DNA from: Cytobacillus oceanisediminis 2691
GTDB taxonomy: Bacteria > Bacillota > Bacilli > Bacillales > Cytobacillaceae
DNA length: 64,000 bases
Reading direction: 5' to 3'
Assembly (NCBI RefSeq): GCF_007678455.1
Contig: NZ_VEEP01000004.1
Coordinates: 62,001 to 126,000, forward strand
Part shown: positions 3,399-58,820 of the stretch, piece after piece
Position numbering within the stretch: position 1 is the stretch's first letter
Layout of the letters: each line of letters opens with the position of its first letter
Program-made: the position numbers and the translations under genes
Notes under the pieces: model-generated
What the model was told of the DNA's origin: nothing
The model's input: the letters and a program-made list of their open reading frames with translations, nothing else
Database searches by the model: none

Positions 3399-4140
3399 TT
3401 GGGACTGTGAAACTCCAGATAATGGAAAATAGTATCGTCAATAGACCATATTGGGACTGCTGAACTCCAGATAATGGGAAAAGGTGTCACCAATAGGGTG
3501 TATTGGGACTGTGAAACTCCAGATAATGGAAAATGGTGTCATCAATAGATCGCATTGGGACTGCGAAACTCCATATAATGGAAAATGGTGTCACCAATAG
3601 ACCGCATTGGGACTGCTGAACTCCAAATAATGGGAAAAGGTGTCACCAATAGGGTGTATTGGGACTGTAAAACTCCAGATAATGGAAAATGGTGTCACCA
3701 ATAGACCGCATTGGGATTGCTGAACTCGAGATAATGGAACATAGTGTCGCCAATAGACCACATTGGGACTGCGAAACTCCAGATAATGGAAAATGGTGTC
3801 ATCAATAGATCGCATTGGGACTGCGAAACTCCATATAATGGAAAATGGTGTCACCAATAACCGGATTGGGACTGCTGAACTCGAGATAATTGGAAAAGGT
3901 GTCACCAATAGGGTGTATTGGGACTGTGGAACTCCAGATAATGGAAAATAGAGTCACCAATAGATCGCATTGGGACTGCTGAATTCCAGATAATGGGAAA
4001 TAGTGTCGCTAATAGACCACATTGGGACCGCAAAAATCCAGATAATGGAAAATGGTGTCACCAATAACCGCATTGGGACTGCTGAACTCCAGATAATGGA
4101 AATTTGTGTCACCAATAGACCGTATTGGAACCCCTTTAAC
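3399..4140. repeat. Hairpin tandem array 1, 52-bp period, 14 units
   Basis: Fourteen head-to-tail units start with TTGGGAC (TTGGGAT in one) at 3399, 3451 and so on to about 4073; all are 52 bp except two of 51 bp, and a degenerate half unit follows at 4125. Unit junctions form a dyad: GTC-A-CCAAT, a 6-7 nt loop, then ATTGG-GAC. Most changes inside the stem keep pairing through G-U (CCAAT to TCAAT or CTAAT). On the minus strand the dyad is followed by ACCATTTTCC. Because 52 is not a multiple of three, the reading frame shifts at every unit, so the open frames crossing it are not credible genes. It sits between convergent yqxA and the NERD gene. Confidence 0.95.
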
Positions 4141-4189
4141 TCCAAAAAAAGAACGGAGCATCATTAAAGCTATGGACGCCCTATTACAA

Positions 4190-4221
4190 AATAATAGTCA
4201 CCAATGAAAACCATTGGTGAC
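4190..4221 (-). terminator. Terminator of the NERD gene; perfect copy of the array 1 dyad
   Basis: GTCACCAATG (4197-4206) and CATTGGTGAC (4212-4221) are perfect complements with a 5-nt loop. On the minus strand the hairpin follows the NERD stop by a few bases and is followed by a T/A-rich tract. The stem matches the dyad repeated in array 1, but without its bulge. Confidence 0.75.
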
Positions 4222-4228
4222 CAAAAAT

Positions 4229-5134
4229 TCATTCATAATATGACCATTGGCCATATCCTGAGACTATTAAATTCTCCTTCAATGTCTGTCTGATGGTTCT
4301 CTTGGGAAATAAATCACCAGTCCATTCATAGATTGTATTGGTGGATAACTTTTCAGACGGATATAGAACTTGATAATCCTCAATGCTTTGCACCAGCGCG
4401 CTTTTAGTATTCACAGGTTTTCCGCATTTTGGGCATGTTAGTATATGTGAATGATATTCTACCATTCCTGTCCCGCATTTCTGACAAAATACACCCTTTC
4501 TTAGCTGTGAATACTCAAAATGAGGCACCTTGCTAAAAGGGGATTTCGTAATATGGGATGCTAATAACTTTTCGGATAATCTTACATGCTGATGGTTCAA
4601 AGTAGTCTGCTGGTTATTCAATTGATGGATAAAGCGGTTCAGGTTTGTCGGGAGGATGATTTTCCTGTTAAGCGGGGCATGGTACAAAGTAAATTCGGGA
4701 TTGACAAATACGAGATACGGCTCAATGGGGATTTTAATTCCGGAACTATTAAAAAATTGTCTTAGGAGTGAAACGTTCCTGTCTAGTTGCAGCAGTGGGT
4801 TTTTAACTTCGTTCCCGTTAATGGTTTTGAATGTATCACCTTCGAAATAATACTCTCCTTCAAAATTTTTAACTTCAAATAGGTAGGAAAGTCTCTGTAT
4901 GATCATCAACGAGTCAATCTGGAAATGAGAATGATTCTGCTCAAGCAGCAAGTCATTTAAAATATATGACTGCATGGTTATTTGTTGCAGGTACCCGTCA
5001 AACATCACCTCGCCTTCAAATCCCTTTTGTAAATTTAAATAGTACTGTTTCTCTTTTTCGGATAAAACCATCCGTGTGTTCAATGCCTTCAAAACTTTTA
5101 ATTCTTCAGACTCATAACGTTCTTTTAAAAACAT
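4229..5134 (-). CDS. NERD domain-containing protein with C-terminal zinc ribbon
   Basis: A 301-residue protein. Residues about 36-130 form a nuclease-related (NERD) domain: GEVMFD near 41-46, Asp74 in QIDSLM and E87-x-K89 in LFEVKNFEGEYYF, the D...ExK pattern of PD-(D/E)xK-type nucleases. A zinc ribbon follows (C217-x2-C220, C234-x2-C237), then a basic tail. Nuclease activity is inferred from the fold; the substrate is unknown. It has its own promoter and terminator and interrupts the conserved yqxA-lepA neighbourhood, so it is accessory here. Start ATG at 5134 follows GGGAGATG on the minus strand. Confidence 0.85.
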   Translation of the reverse strand: MFLKERYESEELKVLKALNTRMVLSEKEKQYYLNLQKGFEGEVMFDGYLQQITMQSYILNDLLLEQNHSHFQIDSLMIIQRLSYLFEVKNFEGEYYFEGDTFKTINGNEVKNPLLQLDRNVSLLRQFFNSSGIKIPIEPYLVFVNPEFTLYHAPLNRKIILPTNLNRFIHQLNNQQTTLNHQHVRLSEKLLASHITKSPFSKVPHFEYSQLRKGVFCQKCGTGMVEYHSHILTCPKCGKPVNTKSALVQSIEDYQVLYPSEKLSTNTIYEWTGDLFPKRTIRQTLKENLIVSGYGQWSYYE

Positions 5135-5164
5135 AATTCATCTCCCTTCTACCATTCATTTTAC

Positions 5165-5193
5165 TTAATAAGTTCCTAATATTCTGTGAACAA
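5165..5193 (-). promoter_or_regulatory. Probable sigma-A promoter of the NERD gene
   Basis: On the minus strand TTGTTC (5188-5193) and TATTAA (5165-5170) are 17 bp apart, about 30 bp before the NERD start. Confidence 0.4.
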
Positions 5194-5254
5194 TATATGG
5201 ACGCAATCCTGCCGTGATAAGGCACCCTCCACGAGACTCTTCCTCCATTATTTA

Positions 5255-5283
5255 TTGAATCTTGATATTCCTGCTGATATAAT
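5255..5283 (+). promoter_or_regulatory. Sigma-A promoter of lepA
   Basis: TTGAAT (5255-5260), a 17-bp spacer and a perfect TATAAT (5278-5283) preceded by TG one base upstream (extended -10). It lies about 43 bp before the chosen lepA start. Confidence 0.8.
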
Positions 5284-5325
5284 CAACAATAGTGTACATG
5301 CGCGAGTATAGTAGGAGTGAACGCA

Positions 5326-7161
5326 ATGAGCAGAGAAGATAGACTTAATAGACAAAGTAAAATACGAAATTTTTCGATTATCGCCCATATTGACCATGGA
5401 AAGTCCACGCTGGCTGACCGGATCCTTGAAAAGACGAATGCCTTGACTGCGCGTGAAATGAAGGATCAGCTGCTGGATTCGATGGATCTTGAGCGTGAAC
5501 GTGGAATCACGATAAAGCTGAACTCAGTACAATTGAAGTACCAGGCGAAAGATGGAGAGATCTATACTTTCCACCTTATCGATACACCTGGACACGTAGA
5601 CTTCACTTATGAAGTATCTCGAAGCCTTGCAGCATGTGAAGGTGCTGTCCTTGTTGTCGATGCAGCACAGGGAATCGAGGCACAGACGCTGGCGAATGTT
5701 TACCTTGCAATCGATAATGACCTGGAAATCGTGCCGGTCATCAATAAAATCGATCTGCCGAGTGCGGATCCTGAACGTGTCAGAAACGAAATTGAAGAAG
5801 TGATCGGCCTGGATGCTTCTGAAGCTGTCCTCGCATCCGCAAAAGCAGGAATCGGGATTGAAGATATCCTTGAGCAAATCGTCGAGAAGGTTCCGGCCCC
5901 GCAGGGAGATCCTGATGCTCCATTAAAAGCATTGATTTTCGACTCTTTGTATGACGCGTACCGCGGCGTAGTTGCATATATCCGCGTTGTCGATGGAACG
6001 GTCAAAGTCGGCGACAAAATCAAAATGATGGCGACAGGCAAAGAGTTTGAAGTAACAGAAGTCGGAGTATTCACGCCAAAGGCTACTCCTTCACCTGAGC
6101 TGACTGTCGGAGATGTAGGTTTCCTGACAGCGGCAATCAAGAACGTCGGCGACACACGTGTGGGTGATACGATCACAAACGCGAAAAACGGTGCTGCCGA
6201 AGCACTTCCGGGATACCGTCGCTTGAACCCAATGGTATATTGCGGTCTGTATCCGATCGACTCAGCGAAATTCAATGACCTGAGGGAAGCACTTGAAAAA
6301 CTTGAGCTTAACGATTCAGCGCTTCAATTCGAACCGGAAACATCACAGGCATTAGGCTTCGGTTTCCGCTGCGGATTCCTGGGACTTCTTCATATGGAAA
6401 TCATCCAGGAGCGCATCGAGCGTGAATTCAAGATTGACCTGATCACGACTGCGCCAAGCGTTATCTACGATGTCATCATGACAGACGGCACTGAAATTAA
6501 GGTGGATAACCCTTCCAATATGCCTGATCCGCAAAAGATCGACCGTGTTGAAGAGCCATATGTAAAAGCAACAATGATGGCGCCGAATGATTATGTCGGA
6601 GCGATCATGGAGCTTTGCCAGGAGAAACGCGGTATCTTCATCGACATGCAATATATGGATGAGACACGCGTCAGCATCGTGTATGAAATCCCGCTGTCTG
6701 AAATTGTCTATGATTTCTTTGACCAGCTGAAATCAAGCACGAAAGGCTATGCTTCGTTCGATTACGAGCTAATCGGCTACAAGCCTTCCAAGCTGGTGAA
6801 GATGGACATCCTGCTTAATGCTGAAAAAGTAGATGCATTGAGCTTCATCGTTCACAGGGACTTTGCTTATGAGCGCGGAAAAGTCATCGTCGATAAGCTG
6901 AAGGACCTTATTCCACGACAGCAATTCGAGGTGCCAATCCAGGCGGCCATCGGCCAGAAAATTGTTGCGCGTTCGACCATCAAGGCGATGCGCAAAAACG
7001 TTCTGGCCAAATGTTATGGCGGGGATATCTCACGTAAGCGTAAGCTCCTTGAGAAACAAAAAGAAGGTAAGAAGCGCATGAAGCAGGTTGGTTCTGTAGA
7101 AGTGCCGCAGGAAGCCTTCATGGCAGTCCTGAAGATGGACGATAACAATACAAAGAAATAA
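5326..7161 (+). CDS. lepA: Elongation factor 4 (ribosomal back-translocase GTPase)
   Basis: A 611-residue translational GTPase that binds the ribosome and acts on stalled or mistranslocated complexes. The G domain at the N terminus shows AHIDHGKST (P loop), DTPGH (G3) and NKID (G4); EF-G-like domains II, III and V and the LepA-specific C-terminal domain (rich in K/R, ending near [17 protein letters not shown]) follow. The full length is nearly identical in pattern to B. subtilis LepA. The ATG at 5326 is preferred over the GTG at 5317 because TAGGAG ends at 5315, too close to the GTG. Single gene ended by a hairpin at 7171. Confidence 0.97.
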
Positions 7162-7170
7162 TATAGAGTG

Positions 7171-7217
7171 GAGGCTGGATGCGCTTGATGACCAAGCGAT
7201 TCTGGCCTCTTTTTTCA
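7171..7217 (+). terminator. Intrinsic terminator after lepA
   Basis: A long stem (GAGGCTGGAT...GCGCTTG pairing with CAAGCG...TGGCCTC) is followed by TTTTTT at 7211-7216, shortly before hemW. Confidence 0.8.
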
Positions 7218-7240
7218 ATAAACCAGGGAAGTGAAAATTA

Positions 7241-8380
7241 ATGAAATCAGCATATATCCATATTCCGTTCTGCCATCATATTTGCCACTATTGTGATTTC
7301 AATAAGGTCTTCATGAAAGGGCAGCCTGTTGATGACTATCTTGATGCCCTTGCAAAAGAAATGGAGTTAACAGTAAAACATGACCAGCATGTCCTTGATA
7401 CGATTTTCGTGGGCGGCGGTACTCCGACTGCATTGGATGAAAGGCAGTTAGGCAAATTGGTCAAGTCAATCCAGGAAAAGCTGAACTTCAATAAAAACAC
7501 AGAATATACATTCGAAGCGAATCCAGGCGACTTGTCAAAAGAAAAGTTGGCCATCCTGAAAGATGCCGGTGTTAACCGCCTGAGTTTTGGAGTACAGACA
7601 TTTAATGATGAACTTCTGAAAAAAATCGGCCGCAGCCACCGGGCGAGGGATGTATTTGAATCAATCGAAAATGCGAAAGCGGCAGGCTTCGATAATATCA
7701 GCATCGATTTGATATACAGTCTTCCCGGCCAGACGAAGGCTGACTTCATCGAATCCATCGAAACGGCCCTTTCTTTGGGCCTGGTCCATTACTCTGGTTA
7801 TTCATTAATCATTGAACCAAAAACAGTATTTTATAATTTAATGCAAAAAGGGAAGCTGCCAATCCCTGGCGAGGATGCCGAAGCGGAAATGTATGAAACG
7901 CTTATGGATCATATGGAAACAAACGGCTTCCATCAATACGAAATCAGCAATTTTGCTGTCCCGGGATACGAAAGCAGGCATAATCTAACCTACTGGAACA
8001 ACGAGGAGTACTATGGTTTTGGTGCAGGAGCTCATAGTTATGTAAAAGGCATGAGACAGTCCAATTACGGTCCCCTGAAAAAGTATATGGAACCGATCGA
8101 CAGGGGAGAGCTGCCTCTTATGGATGTGCATAAGGTTACCCTTGAAGAACAAATGGAAGAAGAAATGTTCCTGGGATTAAGGAAGACAAAAGGTGTTTCC
8201 ATTCGACATTTCGAAGAAAAATTCGGCCGCAATCCAATGCAATTTTTCGCTGGACAAATTGAAGATTGGACCAGGAAAGGGCTGCTGGAAACCGATGATG
8301 ACCGCATCTTCCTGACAAGGCAGGGACGTATGCTTGGCAATGAAGTTTTTCAATCATTCATTGGGGTATCAAATCATTGA
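7241..8380 (+). CDS. hemW: Radical SAM heme chaperone HemW
   Basis: A 379-residue HemN-like protein (YqeR/HemN in older annotation). Its N terminus has the radical SAM cluster motif C11-x3-C15-x2-C18 followed by DF, and VGGGTPT for SAM binding; the C terminus carries the HemN/HemW domain. HemW proteins bind heme and hand it to target proteins; coproporphyrinogen dehydrogenase activity was an earlier assumption. CDF after the last cysteine, and not the longer motif of true HemN, supports HemW. The stop codon lies within the hrcA promoter, so its transcription continues towards the heat-shock operon. Confidence 0.93.
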   Translation: MKSAYIHIPFCHHICHYCDFNKVFMKGQPVDDYLDALAKEMELTVKHDQHVLDTIFVGGGTPTALDERQLGKLVKSIQEKLNFNKNTEYTFEANPGDLSKEKLAILKDAGVNRLSFGVQTFNDELLKKIGRSHRARDVFESIENAKAAGFDNISIDLIYSLPGQTKADFIESIETALSLGLVHYSGYSLIIEPKTVFYNLMQKGKLPIPGEDAEAEMYETLMDHMETNGFHQYEISNFAVPGYESRHNLTYWNNEEYYGFGAGAHSYVKGMRQSNYGPLKKYMEPIDRGELPLMDVHKVTLEEQMEEEMFLGLRKTKGVSIRHFEEKFGRNPMQFFAGQIEDWTRKGLLETDDDRIFLTRQGRMLGNEVFQSFIGVSNH

Positions 8381-8405
8381 CATCCTTATCGATTACTGAT
8401 AAATT
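8377..8405 (+). promoter_or_regulatory. Sigma-A promoter of the hrcA heat-shock operon
   Basis: Perfect TTGACA (8377-8382) and TAAATT (8400-8405) 17 bp apart, immediately before the CIRCE operator. The -35 overlaps the hemW stop codon. Confidence 0.85.
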
Positions 8406-8415
8406 ATTTTTAGAA

Positions 8416-8442
8416 TTAGCACTCGTTATTATAGAGTGCTAA
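8416..8442 (+). promoter_or_regulatory. CIRCE operator bound by HrcA
   Basis: TTAGCACTC, nine bases, GAGTGCTAA: a perfect match to the CIRCE inverted repeat, just downstream of the -10 element. HrcA bound here represses the operon under non-stress conditions; folding of HrcA by GroEL sets its activity. Confidence 0.98.
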
Positions 8443-8456
8443 CAGAGGTGATGATG

Positions 8457-9488
8457 TTGTTAACAGATCGTCAGGTGCTTATTTTGCAGGTGATTGTTGA
8501 TGACTTTATTCGTTCAGCTCAGCCGATAGGTTCGAGGAGCTTGTCGAAAAAAGAAGAAATTAATTTCAGTTCGGCGACAATCCGGAATGAAATGGCAGAT
8601 TTGGAGGATATGGGATTTATTGAGAAGACCCATACATCCTCAGGGAGGATTCCTTCCGAAAAGGGCTATCGTTTTTATGTTGATAACCTTCTGCTGCCGC
8701 AAAAAGTGAACCGTTCTGATATGGCGGCGATCAAATCGATTTTTGCTGAAAGAATATACGAGCTTGAGAAAATCGTCCAGAAATCGGCAAAGATTTTATC
8801 TGAAATGACCAATTATACATCAATCGTTTTAGGACCGGCTGTAAAAGACAACAGGCTGAGAAAGCTGCAGATCGTTCCGTTGAATAAGGATACGGCGATT
8901 GCCATTATCGTGACAGATACAGGGCATGTGGAAAACAGGATGTTCCACTTCCCTACCAGCATTGATCCGTCTGATGTAGAAAAAATGGTCAATATCCTGA
9001 ACGAGCGATTGGCCGGCGTCCCGCTTACCAATCTTAACTCCAAGATCTACAAGGAGATCGCTATGCTGCTGCGCCAGCATATCAGCAGTTATGACACACT
9101 CCTTAATACAATCATGGACACTTTGAATATGCCAGCCCATGAAAAAGTTTTCTTTGGCGGGAAGACGAATATCCTCAGCCAGCCGGAATTCAACGATGTT
9201 GAAAAAATCCGCAACCTGATGAATATGATCGAGCATGAGGATGGCTTATATAACCTCATCAGGAAAAACCCGGCCGGGATCAATGTCAGGATTGGTACGG
9301 AAAACGATAATTCAGCAATGGAAAATTGCAGTCTGATCACTGCCACTTATTCCATGGGTGAAGAAAAGCTGGGATCCATTGCAGTTTTAGGTCCGACACG
9401 GATGGAGTACTCACGGGTCATCAGCTTGCTTCAGTTGATCAGTACGGATTTGTCCAAGGTACTTACACAGCTGTATCAAAATAAATAA
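8457..9488 (+). CDS. hrcA: Heat-inducible transcription repressor HrcA
   Basis: Repressor of class I heat-shock genes. An N-terminal winged helix (about residues 1-70, with [21 protein letters not shown]) binds CIRCE; GAF-like and dimerisation regions follow. I chose TTG at 8457, giving [11 protein letters not shown], which matches the family N terminus and lies 6 nt after AGAGGTG; the ATGs at 8451 and 8454 are too close to that site. The length of 343 is typical. First gene of hrcA-grpE-dnaK and autoregulated through the CIRCE upstream. Confidence 0.96.
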
Positions 9489-9646
9489 GCATGGAAATAT
9501 TGATTAAGGGTGGAGCAGCCTGTTCCATCCTGAATCGTCATGTGTTTTCTACTGAAGCGATTATGCTTCGTTGAAATATATCCAGATTAACCTGGACAAA
9601 GCGGCCCGTGATCCTTGCCGCGATACTTTTAGGGAGGTGAGTTGAC

Positions 9647-10240
9647 GTGACAGAAGAGAGAAACAACACTGAGCAAGAATTGAACAGCCAGGCAGAAGAA
9701 GAAGCGGTTGAAGAGGTTTTTGCTGAAAATGAAGCTTCTGAACAGACTGAAGATATTCCGGCTCAAGAGGAAGGGCAACAAGATCCGATGGAGCAGAAAA
9801 TTGCTGAATTGGAAGGCAAGCTTGAAGAAGCCGATAACCGTTACTTGCGCCTTCAGGCTGATTTTGACAACTTCCGCCGCCGTTCAAGGATTGAACTTGA
9901 AGCGAGCGCTAAATATAGAGCCCAAAACATTATTACAGATCTGCTTCCGGCCATCGATAACTTCGAGCGTGCATTGAAGATGGACGTGGATAATGAACAG
10001 GCGAAATCCCTTAAACAGGGAGTAGAAATGGTTTACCGCAGCTTGCTTGACGCCCTTAAGAATGAAGGCGTTGAAGTAATTGATGCAGTTGGCAAAGAAT
10101 TTGATCCGCATCTTCACCAGGCAGTGATGCAGGCTGAAGATGAAAATTACGGTCCAAACATTGTTGTTGAAGAATTCCAAAAAGGCTATATACTGAAGGA
10201 CCGCATCATTCGTCCAGCGATGGTAAAAGTGAACCAATAA
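9647..10240 (+). CDS. grpE: Nucleotide exchange factor GrpE
   Basis: A 197-residue DnaK co-chaperone that drives ADP release. The N-terminal 60 residues are very acidic and probably disordered, followed by the long coiled coil ([20 protein letters not shown]), the conserved [10 protein letters not shown] stretch and the C-terminal beta domain ending near [16 protein letters not shown] start at 9647 with GGGAGGTGA 6 nt upstream. The 158-bp gap after hrcA holds no other gene. Confidence 0.95.
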
Positions 10241-10270
10241 CAGTGGTTACATAAAAGATCCAGGAGGTAA

Positions 10271-12109
<1,839 letters not shown>

Positions 12110-16604: not shown

Positions 16605-16767
16605 ACGCTAACTAAAGAACAAGAGTAATTCAGGTGTATTGTCCCTTATTAAAAAGATTTTGGCGAAAGTTTAATTATATCGACCACATTCCAAGTTTTA
16701 TCGTCGGATCTTTAAATATATCAAACACATAGGGGTTAAAGTACATTTTACAGATGAATCGACCATC

Positions 16768-30155: not shown

Positions 30156-30364
30156 TATGTTGCTGTGAAGGAAAAGAGTACTTAACTCCCTCTGCATTAG
30201 CGAGTCCGGGTATGGTGTGAGCCGGGTGGCAGAAAGTAAGGAAGGCGTTCCGGAGCGACATCACTTTTAAAGTGGCTGCTTTCTGGCAGCAAATAGGGTG
30301 GAACCGCGGGTAAACTCTCGTCCCTATGCATGAAAACGATGCATAGGGGGCGGGAGTTTTTTTG
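30156..30364 (+). promoter_or_regulatory. Glycine T-box riboswitch of glyQS
   Basis: The T-box sequence AGGGTGGAACCGCGGGT is at 30295-30311. A terminator stem follows (ACTCTCG-CCCTATGCAT with ATGCATAGGG-CGGGAGT, 30314-30357, then seven T). Upstream, in the Stem I region, GAAGGCGTTCCGGAGC places GGC (30244-30246) as the specifier codon for tRNA-Gly(GCC), in the same context as the B. subtilis glyQS leader. Uncharged tRNA-Gly would stabilise the antiterminator and turn on glyQS. Confidence 0.95.
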
Positions 30365-47870: not shown

Positions 47871-48128
47871 ATGATGGACATAGAGGGTGGAAGTGTCCGT
47901 CCTCGGGTTGATGATGGACAGAAATAGTGGAGAGAAGGAGAAAAGTGTCCGTCATCGGGTTCATGATGGACAAAAATGCCGGAGAGAAGGGAAAAAGTGT
48001 CCGTCATCAGGGTCATGATGGACAAAAGTGCTTGAGAGAAGGGAAAAAGTGTCCGTCATCAAGCCCATGATGGACAAAAACCCTAAAGAAAGACGAAAAA
48101 ATGTCCGTCATAGATTTCTACGACGGAC
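47871..48128. repeat. Hairpin tandem array 2, 52-bp period
   Basis: Five dyads begin at 47895, 47947, 47999, 48051 and 48103, exactly 52 bp apart, plus a half unit at the left end. Each is GTCCGTCAT, a 7-nt loop, then ATGATGGAC, with one G-U pair. In the last unit the right arm reads GACGGAC, turning the wobble into a Watson-Crick pair. On the minus strand each dyad is followed by CTTTTTCCC. The array lies between convergent nfo and yqfT, and its rightmost dyad is the likely yqfT terminator. Confidence 0.92.
48091..48128 (-). terminator. Last array 2 dyad acting as yqfT terminator
   Basis: On the minus strand, 8 bp after the yqfT stop, TGTCCGTC and GACGGACA flank a second short stem (TAG/CTA) and are followed by TTTTTT. 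This is a normal intrinsic terminator layout built from the array unit. Confidence 0.75.
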
Positions 48129-50630: not shown

Positions 50631-50660
50631 AAACGGCCATCCTCAAATGGCCGTTTAACT
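50631..50660. terminator. Bidirectional terminator between zur and yqfW
   Basis: AAACGGCCAT and ATGGCCGTTT around CCTCAA, between convergent genes. Confidence 0.82.
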
Positions 50661-51224
50661 GTTTTCTATCCAATTTCTTACCCATTCATTGGCTTCCTGC
50701 CAGTTGTTAACTCGAATGACGCCATCAGGGATTGGCTCCTGGTTATACGGGGTGTCAAAAAGGATGACTGGAATTTTCAGTTCTTCATGCAGATTGACCG
50801 CATTATCATGTTTATCCTCAAAGAAAATATCTACATCATACTTCCGTGCTGCCTGAATTTTATCATGTGAACCAATCAGGTGAATATCATGATATTTAAG
50901 TTCATTGGCAGTAAACCACTCTTGAGTTAGTTCAAGTAAATGTGTGCCCCTCGCGCTGATGAAATACAATTCATGTTCATTTTCCCAGCTCTTCAGGATT
51001 TCCTTTGCTCCTGCTGCTAAAGGGGATTTGGAATAGATAACCGGTTCCATTTTTTTGAACCAGGCTGCAAACTCTTTTTCACTTACTGTTACAAGCGGCA
51101 TAAAATCATACTGCTTGATATCATCAAGGGTAATATCCAAATCGAATGCTTCGTTCAAATACGGTACAAATGTAGTGGGACAGGTGACTGTTCCATCTAT
51201 ATCTATGCCAAAACGTCTTTTCAT
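50655..51224 (-). CDS. yqfW: YqfW, HAD-type nucleotidase-like protein
   Basis: A 189-residue haloacid dehalogenase-fold protein related to 5'(3')-deoxyribonucleotidases. HAD motif I is IDIDGTV (nucleophile Asp, acid Asp+2), motif II FISAR, and motif III/IV include DIFFEDKHDNA. Substrate not known. ATG at 51224 with AAGGAG 8 nt upstream on the minus strand; the longer frame upstream has no family similarity. Its stop overlaps the terminator shared with zur. Confidence 0.87.
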   Translation of the reverse strand: MKRRFGIDIDGTVTCPTTFVPYLNEAFDLDITLDDIKQYDFMPLVTVSEKEFAAWFKKMEPVIYSKSPLAAGAKEILKSWENEHELYFISARGTHLLELTQEWFTANELKYHDIHLIGSHDKIQAARKYDVDIFFEDKHDNAVNLHEELKIPVILFDTPYNQEPIPDGVIRVNNWQEANEWVRNWIENS

Positions 51225-51383
51225 CAGTCTGCTCCTTAACATTGATCTCCTATTAATTTTACCAAATATGGATAGCACGCAAAAGATTAACTTTTTCGTG
51301 CATCAGTCAAACATTGCCATGATGAAAATCAATCCACTCGTAAACAATAATAAATGCTCCACTTAAGAAAGCGAGGGATTAAA

Positions 51384-51938
51384 GTGGCAGACCAAGAGCG
51401 AAAACAGATTGGTACCGAATATATTACTGAACCTAAGCAGGATGTCATTACTATAAGGGATGCGCGTGACGAGATCTACCAGGAGGAAACAGCAACAGAG
51501 CTGTATACTCCTGCACGTGATGAGCATTATCAGGAAATGACGGCAATCGCCGGACCTGGGCGAGATGAGCACTACCAGGAAATGACGGCAATCGCCGGAA
51601 GTGATCGTGATGATCACTATCAGGAGATGACAGCGATTGCGGTGCCTGTTCGTGAAGAACATTATCGTGAGGAGACAGCGGTTGAAATTGCTGCTCCTGC
51701 ACCCCCTGCGATCAGAAGAAGGTCAGAAGAAGAAAGTACAACTGGAGGACGGGGGCTTGCATACTCGGCTCTTGCCCTATCGATCTTGTCGCTGTTTATT
51801 TTGCCTGTTCTTTTCGGAGCAGCTGGAATTGTCCTTGGCTTCATGGCCCGCCGTCGAGGTTCCGCAATCGGCAGCTGGGCGATTGGAATTGGGACAATCT
51901 CCATTCTGGTCGGCATCTTTATTCTTCCGTTCTTTTGA
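51384..51938 (+). CDS. yqfX: YqfX-like membrane protein with internal repeats
   Basis: A 184-residue protein. Residues about 27-102 hold five copies of a 15-17-residue repeat built on RDEHYQEMTAIA (variants RDEIYQEETATE, RDDHYQEMTAIA, REEHYREETAVE). A Pro/Arg/Glu linker follows, then two membrane helices (LAYSALALSILSLFILPVLF and WAIGIGTISILVGIFILPFF) separated by FMARRRGSAIG, a DUF4190-like tail. Position between yqfW and ispG fits B. subtilis YqfX. Function unknown. GTG at 51384 with GCGAGGGA upstream. Confidence 0.8.
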   Translation: MADQERKQIGTEYITEPKQDVITIRDARDEIYQEETATELYTPARDEHYQEMTAIAGPGRDEHYQEMTAIAGSDRDDHYQEMTAIAVPVREEHYREETAVEIAAPAPPAIRRRSEEESTTGGRGLAYSALALSILSLFILPVLFGAAGIVLGFMARRRGSAIGSWAIGIGTISILVGIFILPFF

Positions 51939-51950
51939 CGGAAAATGCCA

Positions 51951-51983
51951 AAAAAATGCCCGGGATTCCCGGGCATTTTTTAT
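51951..51983. terminator. Bidirectional terminator between yqfX and ispG
   Basis: AAAATGCCCGGGA and TCCCGGGCATTTT form a near-perfect palindrome with A and T tracts. Confidence 0.92.
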
Positions 51984-51987
51984 ATGC

Positions 51988-53085
51988 TTATTTTTGGAGG
52001 GCAGCTTCCTGAAGCTTCTCCTCGGCGATTTTATCGATTTCTTTCTTTAATTCTTCTACCATTGTTTCTTCAGGAACTTTACGGACAATTTCTCCTTTTC
52101 GGAAAAGCAGTCCTTCCCCTCTGGCGCCGGCAATACCGATGTCGGCTTCCCGTGCCTCGCCAGGACCGTTTACCGCGCAGCCGAGCACGGCCACTTTGAT
52201 CGGTGCTTTGATCTTTGAGATATATTCTTCCACCTCATTGGCGATGCTGATCAAATCGATCTCGATTCGTCCACACGTTGGGCACGAAATCAATGTTGCG
52301 GCATTGGCAGCCAGGCCGAAAGATTTTAACAGCTCTCTTGCTACCTTTACTTCCTCTACCGGGTCTGCACTTAGTGACACCCTAACCGTGTTCCCGATTC
52401 CTTTGCTGAGGATCGCCCCAAGGCCAGCGGCACTTTTTACAGTTCCGGCAAATAAAGTTCCTGATTCGGTGATTCCAAGATGCAGCGGATAATCGAAGGC
52501 CTTTGCTGCTTTCTCATATGCTTCAATTGCAAGGTTCACGTCCGAAGCCTTCATGGAAACAATGATATTGTGGAAATCAAGATCCTCAAGGATTTTGATG
52601 TGGTGCAAAGCACTTTCCACCATGCCATCAGCAGTAGGGTAACCGTATTTTTCGAGGATTCGTCTCTCTAGTGAACCGGCATTTACACCGATTCTAATAG
52701 GGATACCCTTCTCTTTTGCTGCCTTTACAACAGCCTCTACCTTTTCGCGCTTGCCGATATTCCCGGGATTGATCCTGATCTTATCAGCTCCCCCTTCGAT
52801 TGCTTTAAGCGCCAGGCGGTAATCAAAGTGGATATCAACTACCAAAGGTATATTGATTCGTTTTTTTATTTCAGAAATCGCATTAGCTGCTCTTTCATCT
52901 GGACATGCAACCCGGACAATCTGGCAGCCTGCTTCTTCAAGGCGTTTAATCTCGGCAACAGTCGCTTCGACATCATGTGTCTTGGTAGTTGTCATACTCT
53001 GGATGACCACTTCATTGTTACCGCCAATTGTTAAATTCCCAACCTTTATCGGGCGGGTTTTAGTACGATGTATGATTTCACTCAA
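51988..53085 (-). CDS. ispG: 4-hydroxy-3-methylbut-2-en-1-yl diphosphate synthase
   Basis: A 365-residue [4Fe-4S] enzyme converting MEcPP to HMBPP in the MEP pathway. N-terminal TIM barrel ([37 protein letters not shown]) and a C-terminal iron-sulfur domain with LISCPTCGR and [12 protein letters not shown], giving the three cluster cysteines plus a Glu ligand. Complete and of normal length. Confidence 0.96.
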
Positions 53086-53202
53086 CAGTGATTCGCTCCT
53101 TTAAAAAATGGAATTCATGATAAATTTCCTTAAGATGCACAACCCCATTTTATCAATCTTTTGTTCAAATTGACAAGGAAAGACTTTCTTAGTTAGGCTT
53201 TG

Positions 53203-53550
53203 TTAATTTCGACTGCTGTAATCCGGGAATTTATAGGTATGGCCAAATTTGATTTTTTGGGGATCTGTCCCTCCATTAAGCTGTTTAAAGTCTTCTACCG
53301 CTTGGGAAACCGGGATTGCGAGAGGTTTTTTGGAATTGCTGTCGAGGACAGACAGTACTGTATCGCCAGGCTTGACTTCATGCTCGAAATAAGGAATCTT
53401 CTCCTCAGCCTGGCTTCCTGCTTCTTCCGATTCCGCTTCTACTAAAACTGGTTCTGACGTTCTCGCTGCGGGAAGCGTTCCTATGCTTAAATCATTATAA
53501 ATCGCATATGCTAATACCAGGAAAACCAGGAATCCTGCCAATTTTTTCAT
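53203..53550 (-). CDS. yqfZ: YqfZ, LysM-like exported protein
   Basis: A 115-residue protein with an N-terminal signal or anchor (KKLAGFLVFLVLAYAI), a short acidic linker and a C-terminal LysM-like domain (HEVKPGDTVLSVLD ... DFKQLNGG ... IKFGHTYKFP). B. subtilis YqfZ, encoded after ispG, is a mother-cell (sigma-E) gene for a LysM protein. A role at the spore or cell envelope is inferred. Confidence 0.85.
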   Translation of the reverse strand: MKKLAGFLVFLVLAYAIYNDLSIGTLPAARTSEPVLVEAESEEAGSQAEEKIPYFEHEVKPGDTVLSVLDSNSKKPLAIPVSQAVEDFKQLNGGTDPQKIKFGHTYKFPDYSSRN

Positions 53551-53698
53551 GGAACCTTCCTCCTAAACAGCTTATACCATTATTTATGCAGGAAAAATAG
53601 AGTTAAGAACCAATTTGCTAGAAAAAATACCTATTAATTTATTTGGTCAGGAAGAAAGTGATTAAGATTTATTAAATCAGGGGAGATAGGTAGAAACT

Positions 53699-53726
53699 AA
53701 AAAAATGCGCCCTTGGCGCATTTTTA
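53699..53726 (-). terminator. Intrinsic terminator overlapping the yqgB stop codon
   Basis: On the minus strand AAAAATGCGCC and GGCGCATTTTT form the stem, with the T tract ending at 53699. The stop codon (53724-53726) lies in the leading arm. Confidence 0.8.
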
Positions 53727-54506
53727 AATCTCTTCATTCTTCTGTACAGTTGGTATTTCCTTTATAGCTAATAGAAGAATCATCGATGCTACAAACCAGT
53801 TAATCGCAAAACTAAATGGCACCGTCGTTTTAAGGAATGCCATCAATGTAAAAAATAGAGTAGGGAGCGTTGTACTATATGCAGACATTCTCCATAAATG
53901 TCTGTATTGAAGTTTCCTTTCGGCAAGGTTTTTTAATAGTAAACCGAAAAGTGCAAGTATCGAGACCTCTATGAATTTCATTCCTGCAGAAAAGACAAAA
54001 ATGATGATAAACAGTAATCCGAGCATGACTGGGAGAGAAGATTCCGCCGTTTCAATGAGGGATTGAACATCCTCTTTGGATAAGTTCCCAGTCGAGAAAA
54101 GGGAATAGGGCACCGTATGGGTTTGGCCGCCCGCACTAAGGACAACCTCATGCTCCAGCATTCCGATAGTAGTCTCCATATTTTTCATATCCTTTTCCTC
54201 TACGGCGCCCGTTGGATCGAAAATAATTGTGTAAAGATCTCTTTTCAAGGTGATCGGCGCCTTAATATCCGATTTTAGCACGCCTTCCTCTATGGAAAAG
54301 GGAGGCAGGTCATTTGAGACAACTTGCTTTGCCGAGTCAATTGCTCCAGAAATGGCAGTAAACATATAAAAAATAACTGGCAGAATGGATAGTAACGTTA
54401 ATAAGAAAACAAACAGAATGGTTTTTCCGATGCCCTGAAAGCGGGTAATCGCAATATCTTTAGGTGAATACAGGCTTTTTGCCATTTGGGTAATAAGATT
54501 CATCAT
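53724..54506 (-). CDS. yqgB: DUF1189 membrane protein (YqgB)
   Basis: A 260-residue membrane protein: first transmembrane helix about 20-45 (ILFVFLLTLLSILPVIFYMF), an extracytoplasmic domain of about 120 residues, then four helices. Matches DUF1189 and the locus of B. subtilis yqgB. Function unknown. I chose the ATG at 54506 because AAAGGA lies 9 nt upstream on the minus strand; the ATG at 54530 would include this site. It is divergent from the Na/Pi cotransporter gene. Confidence 0.8.
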   Translation of the reverse strand: MMNLITQMAKSLYSPKDIAITRFQGIGKTILFVFLLTLLSILPVIFYMFTAISGAIDSAKQVVSNDLPPFSIEEGVLKSDIKAPITLKRDLYTIIFDPTGAVEEKDMKNMETTIGMLEHEVVLSAGGQTHTVPYSLFSTGNLSKEDVQSLIETAESSLPVMLGLLFIIIFVFSAGMKFIEVSILALFGLLLKNLAERKLQYRHLWRMSAYSTTLPTLFFTLMAFLKTTVPFSFAINWFVASMILLLAIKEIPTVQKNEEI

Positions 54507-54582
54507 TACACGTCCTTTAATAGATTCCATTGTCTATTTTAGCTTTTTAAAGGAGATTATAACAAGCAATTCAAACTTCTCT

Positions 54583-54628
54583 TGTAACATTTCTGTAATA
54601 TTACTCCTGATTGTTAAGGTATTGTAAA
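54583..54628 (-). promoter_or_regulatory. PhoP-like direct repeats between yqgB and the Na/Pi gene
   Basis: Read on the minus strand: TTTACA (54623-54628), 5 bp, TTAACA (54612-54617); then, 18 bp further, ATTACA, 5 bp, GTTACA (54583-54588). Within each pair the spacing is the 11 bp typical of PhoP boxes. Two of the four hexamers fit the consensus fully and two miss the first base. Control of the divergent Na/Pi cotransporter is possible. Confidence 0.4.
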
Positions 54629-54721
54629 TTCGGCTCTTAAACAGTTTACTTTTTATTAATAATTCCTTCATAATGATTGTGTTTGTAGATGTTTGTCGAA
54701 ATAAATCTAGGGGTTGAAAAA

Positions 54722-56353
54722 ATGGAATTGAATTTACAAGAAATGCTGTTTGAATTCTTTGGGGGTCTTGGAATTTTCTTATACGGCATTAAATTCATGG
54801 GAGATGGGCTGCAAAAATCAGCAGGGGATCGACTAAGGGATGTCCTGGACAAGTTCACGACCAACCCGGTAATGGGTGTACTGGCTGGTCTGATTGTTAC
54901 GGTTTTAGTACAGAGCAGTTCAGCGACCACAGTTATTACGGTTGGACTGGTAAGTGCCGGTTTCATGACATTGCGCCAGGCAATTGGAGTCATCATGGGT
55001 GCGAACATTGGTACGACAATCACTGCATTTATCATCGGAATTGACGTAGGTGAATATGCGCTTCCAATCATTGCCGTTGGTTCAATACTTTTATTCTTCT
55101 TTAAAAGTAAAAAAGTCCATAACATCGGACAGATTGTTTTTGGATTCGGTGCGTTATTCTATGGATTGGAACTGATGAGTGGAGGAATGAAGCCTTTAAG
55201 GAGTCTTGAATCATTCCATGACTTGACTGTGGAATTAAGCTCAAATCCATTCCTTGGAGTTGTAATTGGTACTTTATTCACAGTGATTGTTCAGAGTTCG
55301 AGTGCGACGATCGGTATTCTTCAAGGTTTGCACGCTGAGAATCTGATCAATCTTCAGGGAGCTCTCCCTGTATTATTTGGTGATAATGTTGGGACAACCA
55401 TTACAGCTGTGCTTGCTGCCATCGGTACTTCGGTTGCGGCAAAAAGAGCTGCTGCTACCCATGTATTATTCAATTTGATAGGTACAACGCTGTTTTTAAT
55501 ATTATTGAAGCCATTCACACTTTTAATAGAAATGCTCAGGGATCAACTTTCTCTTAACCCTGAAATGACAATAGCTTTTGCTCACGGTATTTTCAACTCA
55601 ACGAATACGATAATTCAATTGCCATTTATTGCGGTTTTGGCTTTCATTGTGACAAAGCTGATTCCGGGAGAAGACTCAATTGTCGACTACAAGGCACAGC
55701 ATCTTGATCCGGTATTCATCGAGCAATCACCGTCTATCGCTCTTGGCCAGGCTAAAGAAGAAGTTCTTCGCATGGGTAAGTTCGCATTAAAGGGACTTGA
55801 AGAAACGAATGAGTTTTTGAAAACAAAAAATACAAAGCATTCTGGGAATGCCTATCAGCTTGAGGAAGCCATCAATAATCTTGACCGCAAGATTACAGAT
55901 TATCTGGTGGATCTTGCCACAAGCTCTCTATCTGAGCATGAGTCAGAAGAACACAGCATGTTGATTGACACTGTTCGGGATATTGAAAGAATCGGCGACC
56001 ATTTTGAGAATATCATCGAACTGATTGAATACCAGCAGGCTAATAAAGTGAGAGTGACAGACACAGCCATGGATGACCTGGAAACAATGTTTAACTTGAC
56101 TGTCAGTACGGTCGAAGAGGCATTGCAGGCACTAGATCAGAAGAATCTTGATGCAGCCCGGGCTGTTGTAACAAAAGAAGATGAAATTGACGGCATGGAA
56201 CGCAGATTAAGAAAGCAGCACATTATGCGTATGAATGAAGGTCAGTGTTCGGGCCAGGCTGGTATCGTGTTCGTCGATATCATCAGCAACCTTGAACGGA
56301 TCGGCGACCATGCAGTAAATATCGCAGAGTACGTTTTGGGAGAACAGAAATAG
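54722..56353 (+). CDS. Na/Pi cotransporter with PhoU domain
   Basis: A 543-residue membrane protein of the NptA/PNaS family. The membrane part (about 1-310) has the two inverted half-repeats with VLVQSSSATTVIT and VIVQSSSATIGIL, each followed by GANIGTT or GDNVGTT. The C-terminal cytosolic part (about 340-540) is a PhoU-like helical domain with VRDIERIGDHFENI and ISNLERIGDHAVNIAEY. Sodium-driven phosphate transport is expected; PhoU may gate it. ATG 54722 chosen over the upstream ATG 54689 for alignment to the family and TAGGGG upstream. It has a relative without PhoU (yqeW) at 16768. Confidence 0.9.
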   Translation: MELNLQEMLFEFFGGLGIFLYGIKFMGDGLQKSAGDRLRDVLDKFTTNPVMGVLAGLIVTVLVQSSSATTVITVGLVSAGFMTLRQAIGVIMGANIGTTITAFIIGIDVGEYALPIIAVGSILLFFFKSKKVHNIGQIVFGFGALFYGLELMSGGMKPLRSLESFHDLTVELSSNPFLGVVIGTLFTVIVQSSSATIGILQGLHAENLINLQGALPVLFGDNVGTTITAVLAAIGTSVAAKRAAATHVLFNLIGTTLFLILLKPFTLLIEMLRDQLSLNPEMTIAFAHGIFNSTNTIIQLPFIAVLAFIVTKLIPGEDSIVDYKAQHLDPVFIEQSPSIALGQAKEEVLRMGKFALKGLEETNEFLKTKNTKHSGNAYQLEEAINNLDRKITDYLVDLATSSLSEHESEEHSMLIDTVRDIERIGDHFENIIELIEYQQANKVRVTDTAMDDLETMFNLTVSTVEEALQALDQKNLDAARAVVTKEDEIDGMERRLRKQHIMRMNEGQCSGQAGIVFVDIISNLERIGDHAVNIAEYVLGEQK

Positions 56354-56357
56354 TGGT

Positions 56358-56392
56358 AAAATAAGCAAGGGGAAACCCTTGCTTATTTTTAT
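56358..56392 (+). terminator. Intrinsic terminator after the Na/Pi gene
   Basis: AAATAAGCAAGGG and CCCTTGCTTATTT form a perfect stem, followed by TTATCTTT. Confidence 0.88.
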
Positions 56393-56431
56393 CTTTAGAT
56401 TTCATAGTCTGCAGAAAAAAGGATGGATTGT

Positions 56432-56911
56432 ATGGATGCATTATACTGGTCAATAATAGGGCTATTATTCGCAGGCGCATTTGCCAGCCTGGTAATACCG
56501 ATTTTGCCTGGTGTTCTTTTCATGCTGGGCGGTTTTATTTTATATGGCGTTTTTTATTCCTTTGACCCATTTAACTGGTTTTTTTGGACGATTCAGGGTG
56601 CGTTCGTCGCCTTGTTGTTCGGTGCTGACTATATTGCGAACATCATAGGTGTGAAAAAGTATGGGGGAAGAAAGGCTGGTATCTGGGGAAGTACAATCGG
56701 ACTGATCGTTGGACCTTTTGTCATCCCAATTGTCGGTATCCTTGTCGGTCCGTTTATCGGAGCGGCGATTGCGGAGTTGCTGGTCAATAAAAAGAACCTG
56801 AATGACGCGATCAAAATCGGTTTCGGTTCAGTGGTCGGATTTGTCAGCAGCGTAGTGACGAAAGGAATCATCATGGCAATCATGCTTGTTTATTTCTTCC
56901 TGATCATATAA
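56432..56911 (+). CDS. yqgC: DUF456 membrane protein (YqgC)
   Basis: A 159-residue very hydrophobic protein with four to five membrane helices and the DUF456 pattern: ASLVIPILPGVLFMLGGF at the start, GVKKYGGRKAGIWGSTIG, then VGPFIGAAIAELL and a C-terminal helix. Function unknown. ATG at 56432 is better spaced from AAAAGG than the ATG at 56423. Its synteny near sodA matches B. subtilis yqgC. Confidence 0.83.
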   Translation: MDALYWSIIGLLFAGAFASLVIPILPGVLFMLGGFILYGVFYSFDPFNWFFWTIQGAFVALLFGADYIANIIGVKKYGGRKAGIWGSTIGLIVGPFVIPIVGILVGPFIGAAIAELLVNKKNLNDAIKIGFGSVVGFVSSVVTKGIIMAIMLVYFFLII

Positions 56912-56943
56912 AAAAATCGTGCTGATGCAGCACGATTTTTTTA
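56911..56943. terminator. Bidirectional terminator between yqgC and fnr
   Basis: AAAAAATCGTGCTG and CAGCACGATTTTTT with a short ATG loop, between convergent genes; it starts at the last base of yqgC. Confidence 0.88.
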
Positions 56944-56971
56944 TTCCATTTAGGTTGACCTGGCGCAGAGA

Positions 56972-57664
56972 TCAATTTAATCCGCAGATTTCAAATGAAC
57001 AATTCTGGCAATCGACTTCCCTCTTTAAATAGCTAAGGTTTTTAACAGTGAATTTTAGCTGGTCATAGGCAATGATGTCTTTTTCGCGCAATTCCTTCAG
57101 CATCCTTTGGATTACTTCACGCGTGCCATAGGTCAGATTGGCAAGCTCCTGGTGTGTGAGCGGCAAATCAATCAGGATGCCTTCATCTGTCATCACACCG
57201 TAGCTGTTGCACAGCCTGATCAAAATGGAATACAATCCGCCTTTTTTACCGTTCATGATCAGGTCCTGGCACTTCATTTGCGCCTTGAGGTATCTTGTGC
57301 TCAGCCAATTCACCAGTGCATTCATGGCGGTGTTATCATTAAGGACGAATTCCTCGAACTGTTCCCTTTTGATCATCAGGACCTCACAGTCTGTGAGCGT
57401 TTTTGCAGAAAAATGGTATCGTGGAGTATGTTTGAACAATTCATATTCTATGATCATCTCTTCGCCATTCAGGATTTTGAGGATGAATTCCTTTCCCTTC
57501 ATGTGGACGCGTCCGACTGAGACACTTCCGCTCAGGATAATATAAACGTTCTGAACATTTTCGTCTTCCTGAAAAAGGAGGGTATCTGCTTTAATTTTTT
57601 GGATTGTTTCCTTATCAATGAAGTTTTGTAAAATTAAACTGTATAATGATATATTTTTGTCCAT
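56972..57664 (-). CDS. fnr: Fnr-type oxygen-sensing regulator (Crp/Fnr family)
   Basis: A 230-residue Crp/Fnr regulator: cNMP-like beta barrel (about 20-110), dimer helix and a winged helix (LTHQELANLTYGTREVIQRM). The C terminus carries C219-x2-C222-x4-C227 (DCQNCSFEICGLN), the same spacing as the C-terminal cluster cysteines of Bacillus Fnr, so an oxygen-labile [4Fe-4S] cluster is likely. It would activate anaerobic respiration genes. I use ATG 57664, which has AAGGAG 9 nt upstream; an in-frame ATG 132 bp earlier has no site. B. subtilis fnr lies beside narK, so its place near sodA is different. Confidence 0.82.
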   Translation of the reverse strand: MDKNISLYSLILQNFIDKETIQKIKADTLLFQEDENVQNVYIILSGSVSVGRVHMKGKEFILKILNGEEMIIEYELFKHTPRYHFSAKTLTDCEVLMIKREQFEEFVLNDNTAMNALVNWLSTRYLKAQMKCQDLIMNGKKGGLYSILIRLCNSYGVMTDEGILIDLPLTHQELANLTYGTREVIQRMLKELREKDIIAYDQLKFTVKNLSYLKREVDCQNCSFEICGLN

Positions 57665-57913
57665 CAGGATCGTCTCCTTATTATTCCTCTCTATACTTTG
57701 ATTTAAAAGAATTGTTGCTACTGTGTCAATTGTGTTTTGGAAATAAATGGGTGTATTTTTGGTGAGGTGCGACAAATATCGTTGACACGACTGCATTCGG
57801 GGAATATTGACGATTTTCTGAAACTTGTTTTAATTGGCTCAGGTAAAGATGAATGTAGATTTATAAACCCTGTGGATTGAAAAGAAAGGTGCGTAGACTG
57901 CTCCAAAAATGAA
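57665..57913. other. Region upstream of fnr without a recognised gene
   Basis: About 250 bp between the fnr start and array 3. I see no open frame with a ribosome-binding site and no TGTGA-N6-TCACA Fnr box. AT-rich at the left, then array 3 begins. Confidence 0.5.
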
Positions 57914-58820
57914 CCTGTCCGAAGTTGCCTTTACTTCGGACAGCTTCTGCTACTTTTCCCTCAAACCTGTCTGAAGCTAGCTCTAGTTCGGACAGCTTTT
58001 CGCTGGTTTCCCCCAAACCTGTCTGAAGTTAGCTCTAGTTCGGACAGCTTTTCGCTGGTTTCCCCCAAACCTGTCTGAAGATGCCTCTGGTTCGGACAGC
58101 TTTTGCTGCTTTTCCCCCAAACCTGTCTGTAGATGCCTTTAGTTCGGACAGGTTTTGCTGCTTTTCCGCCAAACCAGTCCTAAGTTAGCTCTGGTTCGGA
58201 CAGCTTTTCGTTGTTTTCCCCCAAAGCTGTCTAAAGTTGCCTCTGGTTCGGACAGGTTTTCGTTGATTTCCGCCAAACCTGTCTGAAGTTGCCTCTAGTT
58301 CGGACAGCTTTTCGTTGTGTTCCCTCAAACCTGTCTGAAGATGCCTTTAGTTCGGACAGCTTTTGCTGCTTTTCCGTCAAACCTGTCAGAAGATGCCTCT
58401 AGTTCGGACAGCTTTTCGTTGATTTCCCCCAAAGCTGTCTGAAGTTGCCTCTGGTTCGGACAGCTTTTGCTGCTTTTCCCCCAAACCTGTCTGAAGATGC
58501 CTCTTGTTAGGACAGCTTTTGCTGCTTTTCCGTCAAACCTGTCTGAAGGTGCCTCTAGTTCGGACAGGTTTTCGTTGATTTCCTCCAAACCTGTCTGAAG
58601 TTAGCTCTAGTTCGGACAGCTTTGCTGCTTTTCCGTCAAACCTGTCTGAAGATGCCTCTAGTTCGGAAAGGTTTTCGTTGATTTCCTCCAAACCTGTCTG
58701 AAGTTGCCTCTGGTTAAGACAGCTTTTCGCTGTTTTCCCTCAAACCTGTCTGAAGTTAGCTCTACTTCGGCCAGCTTTTGTATCCTTTCTCCCAAACCTG
58801 TCTGAAGTCGCCCCTGGTTC
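57914..58820 (+). repeat. Hairpin tandem array 3, 52-bp period, 17 units
   Basis: Seventeen head-to-tail units begin with CCTGTC or a variant at 57914, 57966, 58018 and onward; all are 52 bp except one of 51 bp, and an eighteenth is cut off by the dispersed repeat. Each has CTGTCTGAA, an 11-nt loop, then TTCGGACAG: nine pairs with one U-G. The first unit has a perfect 11-bp stem (CTGTCCGAAGT/ACTTCGGACAG). On the plus strand the dyad is followed by CTTTTCG or CTTTTGC and then TTTCCC. It lies between divergent fnr and sodA. Confidence 0.95.

Follow-up and report, generated by a model that had tools for sequence, protein, structure and literature searches.

Why should three intergenic tandem arrays within one stretch of a Bacillales chromosome all repeat every 52 bp? 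The stretch (hereafter the window) comprises 64,000 nt of contig NZ_VEEP01000004.1 of Cytobacillus oceanisediminis 2691, whose genome is G000 in our locus labels. An earlier note on this DNA had described the arrays as unrelated sequences converging on one period, and had offered a DNA-binding or nucleoid factor, an RNA made of regular hairpins or a duplication mechanism measuring 52 bp as the constraint. We found instead that most array families have a common frame and pair with paralogs of one clade (A) of NERD-domain proteins, and that a DNA-binding factor is the best fit of the three options.

In a Pfam scan the genes beside the arrays were mostly ordinary and of mixed kinds, with a NERD protein beside two arrays. 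When 211 proteins encoded beside 60 arrays were compared all against all, the NERD family emerged with its 3' end at the array in L024, L039, L327 and the window, accompanied by four different dyad families; other recurring families looked partly like orthologous contexts. The window member, which adjoins array 1, had been overlooked in the earlier note. Overall, a 51–53-bp array lay just 3' of the gene at 44 of 47 clade A loci, the other three being remnants or at a contig edge, compared with a base rate of 20 of 693 called genes in this array-rich genome; that rate and the flank classes are approximate because the simple gene caller missed some genes, the window NERD gene included. We regard the association between gene and array as practically certain.

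All 21 clade A genes in five genomes, a set partly chosen because it holds arrays, had a 51–53-bp array 3' (36–100 % identity to the window protein; one locus of this survey, L390, could not be read), and no row of that period was reported by Tandem Repeats Finder (TRF) within 900 nt 5' of them. A further 26 loci were picked by protein similarity alone as the best matches of a search of 397 genomes, six of them being orthologs of the window gene at 65–99 % identity, and 23 had the array 3' of the gene. At L398 and L405 the contig ends 59 and 132 nt after the stop codon, respectively, with a dyad already visible, and L413 holds two or three degenerate units that give no TRF array. The period of 34 clade A arrays was 51 bp in seven, 52 bp in 26 and 53 bp in one, and the median start was 65.5 nt after the stop codon. 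L384 also has a 56-bp tandem repeat (4.9 copies) 401–127 nt 5' of the NERD match, in addition to the usual 52-bp array 3'.

Gene and array come and go together at the yqxA–lepA interval, where an array of the CCAAT family was present in all 12 genomes of the genus with the NERD gene and in none of the five genomes without it; four further loci were cut by contig ends. Two of the five NERD-less loci (L246 in G001 and L255 in G012) hold a period-53 array of the CCCTTATG family instead.

The period was surveyed in 864 kb of the genome (4.9 Mb in 477 contigs), consisting of 40 20-kb stretches spaced along eight larger contigs together with the window. Among 35 TRF arrays with a period of at least 43 bp, 28 were of the 52 class (period 52 in 23, 53 in one, 104 in one, 155 in one and 156 in two), two of these being 276 bp apart in L056 and possibly one array; the other seven had periods of 45 (two), 60, 87 (two), 122 and 178 bp. 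A second array class had periods of 20, 21, 40–42 or 60 bp. The 28 arrays cover 14,410 of 864,000 bp (~1.7 %) and none overlaps a called gene by more than 30 %, three lying at stretch ends without both flanks.

Chance is excluded as the origin of the 52-bp spacing. In the sampled 864 kb, GACA starts 23 bp after TGTC 150 times and TGTC recurs at 52 bp 149 times, with medians over distances of 11 and 10, respectively, which bears out the earlier view that the period reflects a genuine constraint. The frame common to most families is TGTC-N19-GACA-N25 (27 + 25 = 52), or more broadly (T/G)GTC-N19-GAC(A/C)-N25, and TGTC-N19-GACA-N25-TGTC gave 607 + 618 matches in this genome compared with 0 + 1 for a reversed control. 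This frame rests on the positions of TGTC and GACA and not on a span test, which lacks specificity for 27: palindromes have a common centre, so that neighbouring odd spans score similarly. Inside the fixed frame the stem differs in length, at ~6–10 bp, as in TGTCCRTCAT-7-ATGAYGGACA, TGTCCGAA-11-TTCGGACA and TGTCAA-15-TTGACA. One family has asymmetric half-sites (TGTCAAGAA / TGTCAAAATAA), and the frame is less clear in several families, the period-53 family included. The linkers of different arrays look unrelated and are constant in length.

The earlier note had named as refuting an absence of further 52-bp arrays here and in relatives, or widely spread periods; its idea survived, as many more arrays were found, with periods of 51–53 bp. 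Across the 397 genomes, five other families of the order have individual members with at least 100 frame matches per strand, and the distribution is patchy even within genera, as in G029, G075 and G140 of one genus (125, 0 and 125 forward matches, respectively). The TGTCCRTCAT dyad formed 904 pairs at spacings of 37–67 bp in 20 genomes of the window's genus (G000–G019, our own summing); a listing over these genomes and G041 placed six of the pairs outside 51–53 bp and none at 42 or 62 bp. That no pair lies one helical turn away from 52 bp argues against pure helical phasing of independent sites. A scan of named genomes for one dyad, with 80 of 113 stretches listed and Bacillales assigned by record title, gave exact 52-bp spacing for 128 of 145 pairs in 35 Bacillales loci compared with 0 of 58 in 45 loci of other taxa, among the matches listed; the 35 loci include three Chryseobacterium sp. 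ISL-80 records, whose repeats resemble those of Bacillus sp. ISL strains. The dyad was present, among the same listed matches, in Mesobacillus, Metabacillus, Virgibacillus and several Bacillus sp. strains. A phage origin was rejected, as two dyads gave 0 matches in a collection of viral contigs.

Clade A NERD matches (E ≤ 1e-40) were found in 63 of 66 array-bearing genomes compared with 82 of 331 others, by a hand tally in which array-bearing means at least four frame matches on one strand and at most five candidates were scored per genome. The NERD domain as such occurred in 67 of 69 genomes searched for it. NERD gene count alone was considered as a predictor and rejected, as it does not separate array-rich from array-poor genomes; clade does better.

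The pairing extends to individual paralogs. The six clade A NERD genes of this genome carry six different array families, with half-sites mostly of the form (T/G)G(T/G)C followed by six paralog-specific bases. A resident clade A half-site was matched at 85 % or more by 20 of the 28 sampled arrays, and five of the six families occur among these. Related half-sites (TGTCCTTCAT) lie beside NERD genes of other genera (L401, L409 and L414). Over all pairs, half-site and protein identity were significantly related in a Mantel test that omitted L413 and proteins of 250 amino acids or less.

For the window arrays (Table 1), TRF agrees with the earlier note in giving a period of 52 bp to all three. Array 1 is of the CCAAT family (TGTCACCAAT-7-ATTGGGACTG, read on the plus strand) and is the private array of the adjoining NERD gene, 100 bp 3' of its stop codon. 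Array 2 is of the TGTCCRTCAT-7-ATGAYGGACA family and array 3 of the TGTCCGAA-11-TTCGGACA family, with the same half-site as the array 3' of NERD gene G000:C111:330578. The arrays had been said to have no primary sequence in common, which does not hold for arrays 2 and 3, whose frame of TGTC-N19-GACA and then N25 is identical; relative to it, the left half TGTCACCAAT is retained in array 1 and the right half is shifted by one base. The dyad claimed for every array was recovered in arrays 2 and 3, with stem scores of 7.5 and 8.0 (shuffled units: mean 4.6 for both, maximum 8.0 and 7.0, respectively). In array 1 it is weak as a stem, with only CCAAT-7-ATTGG (5 bp) and a score of 5 that does not exceed that of shuffled units (mean 5.2). 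At the orthologous locus 2, the same family persists across many of the 21 genus members compared, with different unit numbers and diverged linkers, and the array was absent in G014, G002, G008 and G010.

Table 1. Arrays and associated NERD gene in the window (positions numbered from its first nucleotide)
Feature	Position	Strand	Description
Array 1	3399..4128	- (strand of the gene it lies 3' of)	TRF period 52, 14.1 copies
Array 2	47871..48128	+	~4-5 units of 52 bp; TRF row 47891-48111, 4.2 copies
Array 3	57912..58820	-	TRF period 52, 17.5 copies
NERD-domain protein, clade A	4229..5134	-	301 amino acids; NERD 37-144; C217/C220/C234/C237 invariant; helical C-terminal domain from ~243

Other repeats and one known RNA were noted in and around the window. 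A T-box leader (RF00230) lies at 30156–30328 (93.6 bits, cut-off 93). A 45-bp repeat at 51516–51666, within the called gene 51354–51938, is protein-coding and unrelated to the 52-bp arrays. Next to array 3, at 58875–58960, is a G+C-rich stretch (GGAGGAAAGCGGCAGGG..CCCCGCGGAACGCAAAGCG), which we take to resemble a common Bacillaceae repeat. Elsewhere, CCTAGCCCCTCGAG-like and GGTCGGCCCTCC motifs mark another dispersed element of intergenic regions, seen in units of ~120–180 bp (L023:9503-9902, L027:4427-4665 and L248).

The window NERD protein scored 57.3 bits against PF08378 (cut-off 22.1), and seven further clade A or B proteins were also over the cut-off; the NERD proteins do not match PF01797 (Y1_Tnp). 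The clade A architecture comprises ~300 amino acids with PD-(D/E)XK-type residues, a zinc ribbon and a C-terminal helical domain. G41, E42, F71, Q72, D74, K89, Q116 and the four cysteines are retained in 30 aligned clade A proteins, with D74 and K89 invariant, and position 87 is E or D; judged from this alignment, the conserved residues are those that a PD-(D/E)XK nuclease with an added zinc ribbon should have. The confident structural model of the window protein (mean predicted local distance difference test score 92.2, predicted template modelling score 0.85) places three helices after the ribbon at the C-terminus, which may form a winged-helix-like DNA-binding domain. Clades A, B and C separate on a tree with support of 1.0, 0.905 and 0.94, respectively, from a set in which at least one clade B gene was entered twice, and the CxxC..CxxC pattern was present in 29/30, 37/37 and 0/26 proteins of these clades. 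Several NERD copies among the loci examined are broken or interrupted; the copy adjoining array 1 stops short at 231 amino acids in one strain. L368 and L378 (G126:C1:315441-317689) are two pieces of one clade A gene with an array beyond; the ~1.3 kb interrupting it begins an open reading frame resembling an insertion-sequence protein.

Clade B, the sister of clade A, was found in 251 of 397 genomes at E ≤ 1e-40 and goes with direct-repeat arrays of 20–21 bp. In the five-genome set the array was 5' of the gene in six of seven readable loci and 3' in one. An exceptional clade B gene, L386 (G340:C3:473356), has a 19-copy 21-bp array 20–418 nt 3' of it. Of 30 clade B loci, 18 had a 20–21-bp array within 600 nt 5', comprising 10/10 loci of the window's genus and 8/20 outside it (TRF flagged 19, including L436, which looks coding and was not counted), and three more had an array 3' only. 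The TATAGCGA repeats of this genome have one member beside the clade B gene C221:204178. A degenerate 20-bp, TGGTCGATATA-like repeat at window positions 16669–16731 (minus strand), where strain G041 has a recognisable period-40 array (L287:11220-11320), is probably what is left of a repeat that went with a clade B NERD. For clade C, which has the strongest Pfam scores among the NERD proteins, four of 28 loci showed an array row, which in one case is low-complexity, and NERD proteins without the extension were mostly without arrays.

We favour, with moderate confidence, an explanation that regards the arrays as lattices of sites bound by NERD proteins, nuclease gene and repeats forming a partnership similar to that of repetitive extragenic palindromic (REP) sequences with RAYT proteins. 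Each clade A NERD would recognise its own 27-bp site, probably as a dimer, through two inverted 10-bp half-sites with 7 bp between, and sites every 51–53 bp (five helical turns) would bring neighbouring protein units onto the same side of the helix. The protein might then make or guide nicks or breaks through which units are duplicated, homogenised and occasionally copied. Besides the gene's own array 3' of the stop codon, further arrays of the same family lie in other intergenic regions. Clade B may often work similarly, with direct repeats of a site every 20–21 bp (two turns) that are mostly located 5' of the gene. Binding of NERD proteins to the arrays is very probable; the combination of a fixed 27-bp frame with variable stems, even strand use and gene-specific half-sites argues that duplex DNA is recognised by a dimer. 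Dimerisation and cleavage by NERD are both putative, and nuclease-promoted spread of the sites is a tentative proposal to which we give slightly less than even weight.

Several observations weigh against this partnership. Six of the 28 sampled arrays belong to families without a resident clade A gene (TGTCCRTCAT, TGTCCGATAG and GGTCGSAG, defined from the arrays themselves), and two match no assigned half-site family. No clade A gene of the TGTCCRTCAT family was found in G000, G016 or G018, although the family is widespread in the genus; array 2 of the window is thus an orphan, no clade A NERD with its half-site having been found in this genome. Half-site and protein identity show no relation among pairs below 55 % identity, the CCCTTATG family has a period of its own (53 bp) and nine of the 30 clade B loci are without an array. 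At E ≤ 1e-40 a clade A match was missing from the array-bearing genomes G025, G099 and G365; conversely, 82 genomes have a clade A match with fewer than four TGTC-frame matches; these likely have other half-sites, and the arrays at the G330 and G219 loci have another core. Foldseek gave only weak matches, nucleases among them, with a best E value of 1.1e-3 and none for the model at E ≤ 0.001; the proteins matched include R2 retrotransposon proteins, Can2 and BspD6I. In two strains of one species, six of six compared 52-class arrays were in the same places, some with different unit numbers, and movement must therefore be rare. Lastly, if the nuclease cut its own sites it would have hundreds of chromosomal targets, so that cleavage, if it takes place at all, has to be conditional or single-stranded.

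The fixed five-turn geometry, conserved sites and freely drifting linkers are also consistent with an architectural or regulatory lattice, in which NERD would bind the arrays without cutting and use them to fold the nucleoid, insulate neighbours or regulate its own gene, the arrays being retained for their benefit to the host. The persistence of same-family arrays at locus 2 in many of the 21 genus genomes with differing copy number, and the equal array positions in two strains of one species, point the same way. We nevertheless consider such a lattice rather unlikely, given its patchy distribution within genera (125, 0 and 125 forward frame matches) and the mixed kinds of flanking genes scanned; conserved nuclease-type residues, patchy spread, orphan families and broken or interrupted NERD copies favour the RAYT/REP-like partnership over a host-serving lattice. 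A defence or addiction device, with NERD attacking foreign DNA or acting as a toxin and the arrays serving as decoys, sensors or operators restraining it, is improbable. One rare defence system contains NERD, described as a subtype of PD-(D/E)xK (PMC12458937), and five of five proteins scanned had sub-cut-off NCBIfam matches to a defence kinase model. An arms race would be in keeping with the several diverged paralogs per genome and with the broken state of some copies. However, PADLOC gave only two weak matches in five proteins, to unrelated models, scanned array-side genes were ordinary apart from NERD, and 28 arrays per 864 kb would be a very large decoy load.

An RNA device would have transcribed array hairpins bind and inhibit NERD, as in type III toxin–antitoxin loci, where tandem repeats lie next to a nuclease-like gene. 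The layout is the same, and some units have stems of up to 10 bp followed by T runs on one strand. The RNA-hairpin option of the earlier note is disfavoured, however, because the stem varies (~6–10 bp) while the 27-bp frame is fixed, one family even being asymmetric. Unit polarity is inconstant relative to the NERD gene (L380 compared with L379, L381 and L384) and even relative to co-directional neighbour genes, with seven arrays the same and eight opposite in a hand count of 15; arrays 1 and 2 of the window were left out, a neighbour gene there having escaped the gene caller. Same-family arrays are also scattered in many other places, and the window arrays match no Rfam family at the gathering threshold, the T-box being the sole known RNA in the window. 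Such a device is therefore very unlikely. Least plausible of all, and remote in our judgement, is that the arrays are made by a duplication mechanism blind to sequence, with 52 bp as its measure, while NERD genes merely tolerate nearby arrays; unit sequence does vary among families with the period staying at 51–53 bp, but within a family the half-sites are conserved from locus to locus and from genome to genome, and the clade A association far exceeds the base rate for genes generally. Gene-specific half-sites and two clade-specific periods, clade B genes going with 20–21-bp arrays instead, disfavour this mechanism.

The partnership of NERD genes and arrays may be more general. Whether Bacillales hold undescribed, order-wide nuclease–satellite pairs, in which two sister zinc-ribbon NERD clades each build or maintain their own tandem lattice and every paralog is site-specific and seeds further lattices genome-wide, is a question on which we are evenly divided. 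If they do, this would in effect be bacterial satellite DNA with a dedicated enzyme family, with clade A sites every five turns 3' of the gene and clade B sites every two turns mostly 5'. NERD, an ill-understood domain, would gain a first candidate target and a testable role, and the partnership would account for the ~1.7 % of the sampled genome that otherwise resembles unexplained satellite DNA. The diverged paralogs would form a natural set of protein–DNA specificity pairs, because a candidate recognition site can be read from the neighbouring array, and the arrays would be a natural system for how fixed helical spacing persists in tandem repeats.

Among known systems, type III toxin–antitoxin loci differ in that the clade A array is 3' of the gene, with inconsistent polarity and many copies in trans. 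The res sites of Tn3/gamma-delta resolvases have TGTC-starting half-sites in sub-sites of ~28 bp, two of which are about five turns apart, and the arrays are similar in all three respects. No serine recombinase was found among the array-side proteins scanned, with no further test of a resolvase tie, and a serine resolvase as partner was dropped once NERD genes recurred beside arrays. The alternation of a ~27-bp dyad with ~25 bp resembles CRISPR; here, however, linkers recur within an array, dyads vary and there are no unique spacers, and no cas genes were found among 20 proteins scanned beside or near arrays, with no dedicated search made. Bcr1 and similar Bacillus miniature inverted-repeat transposable elements, named in PMC3733652, are likewise Bacillaceae repeats outside genes; by description they are set apart by having terminal inverted repeats and not 52-bp tandem arrays. 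No account of 52-bp arrays or of NERD-linked repeats was found among the papers listed by searches of open-access PubMed Central, and a 2022 paper states that, to its authors' knowledge, the role of NERD in bacteria had never been studied (PMC9040797). REP sequences are described as extragenic palindromic repeats of high copy number, with several families per genome and sometimes regularly spaced clusters, and as linked to RAYT genes flanked by the same repeat (PMC2817692). Here too the repeat flanking a NERD gene is found at many intergenic sites (20 of 28 sampled arrays). The partner differs, being a PD-(D/E)XK-type NERD protein where RAYT is an HUH tyrosine enzyme, and RAYT itself was rejected as the array partner, Y1_Tnp (PF01797) being without a match in the array-rich genomes G006 and G015. 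The layout also differs, with tandem arrays of fixed 51–53-bp period on one side of the gene where a RAYT gene is flanked by an inverted pair. With these differences, RAYT–REP is the nearest known arrangement to that of the clade A NERD genes and their arrays.

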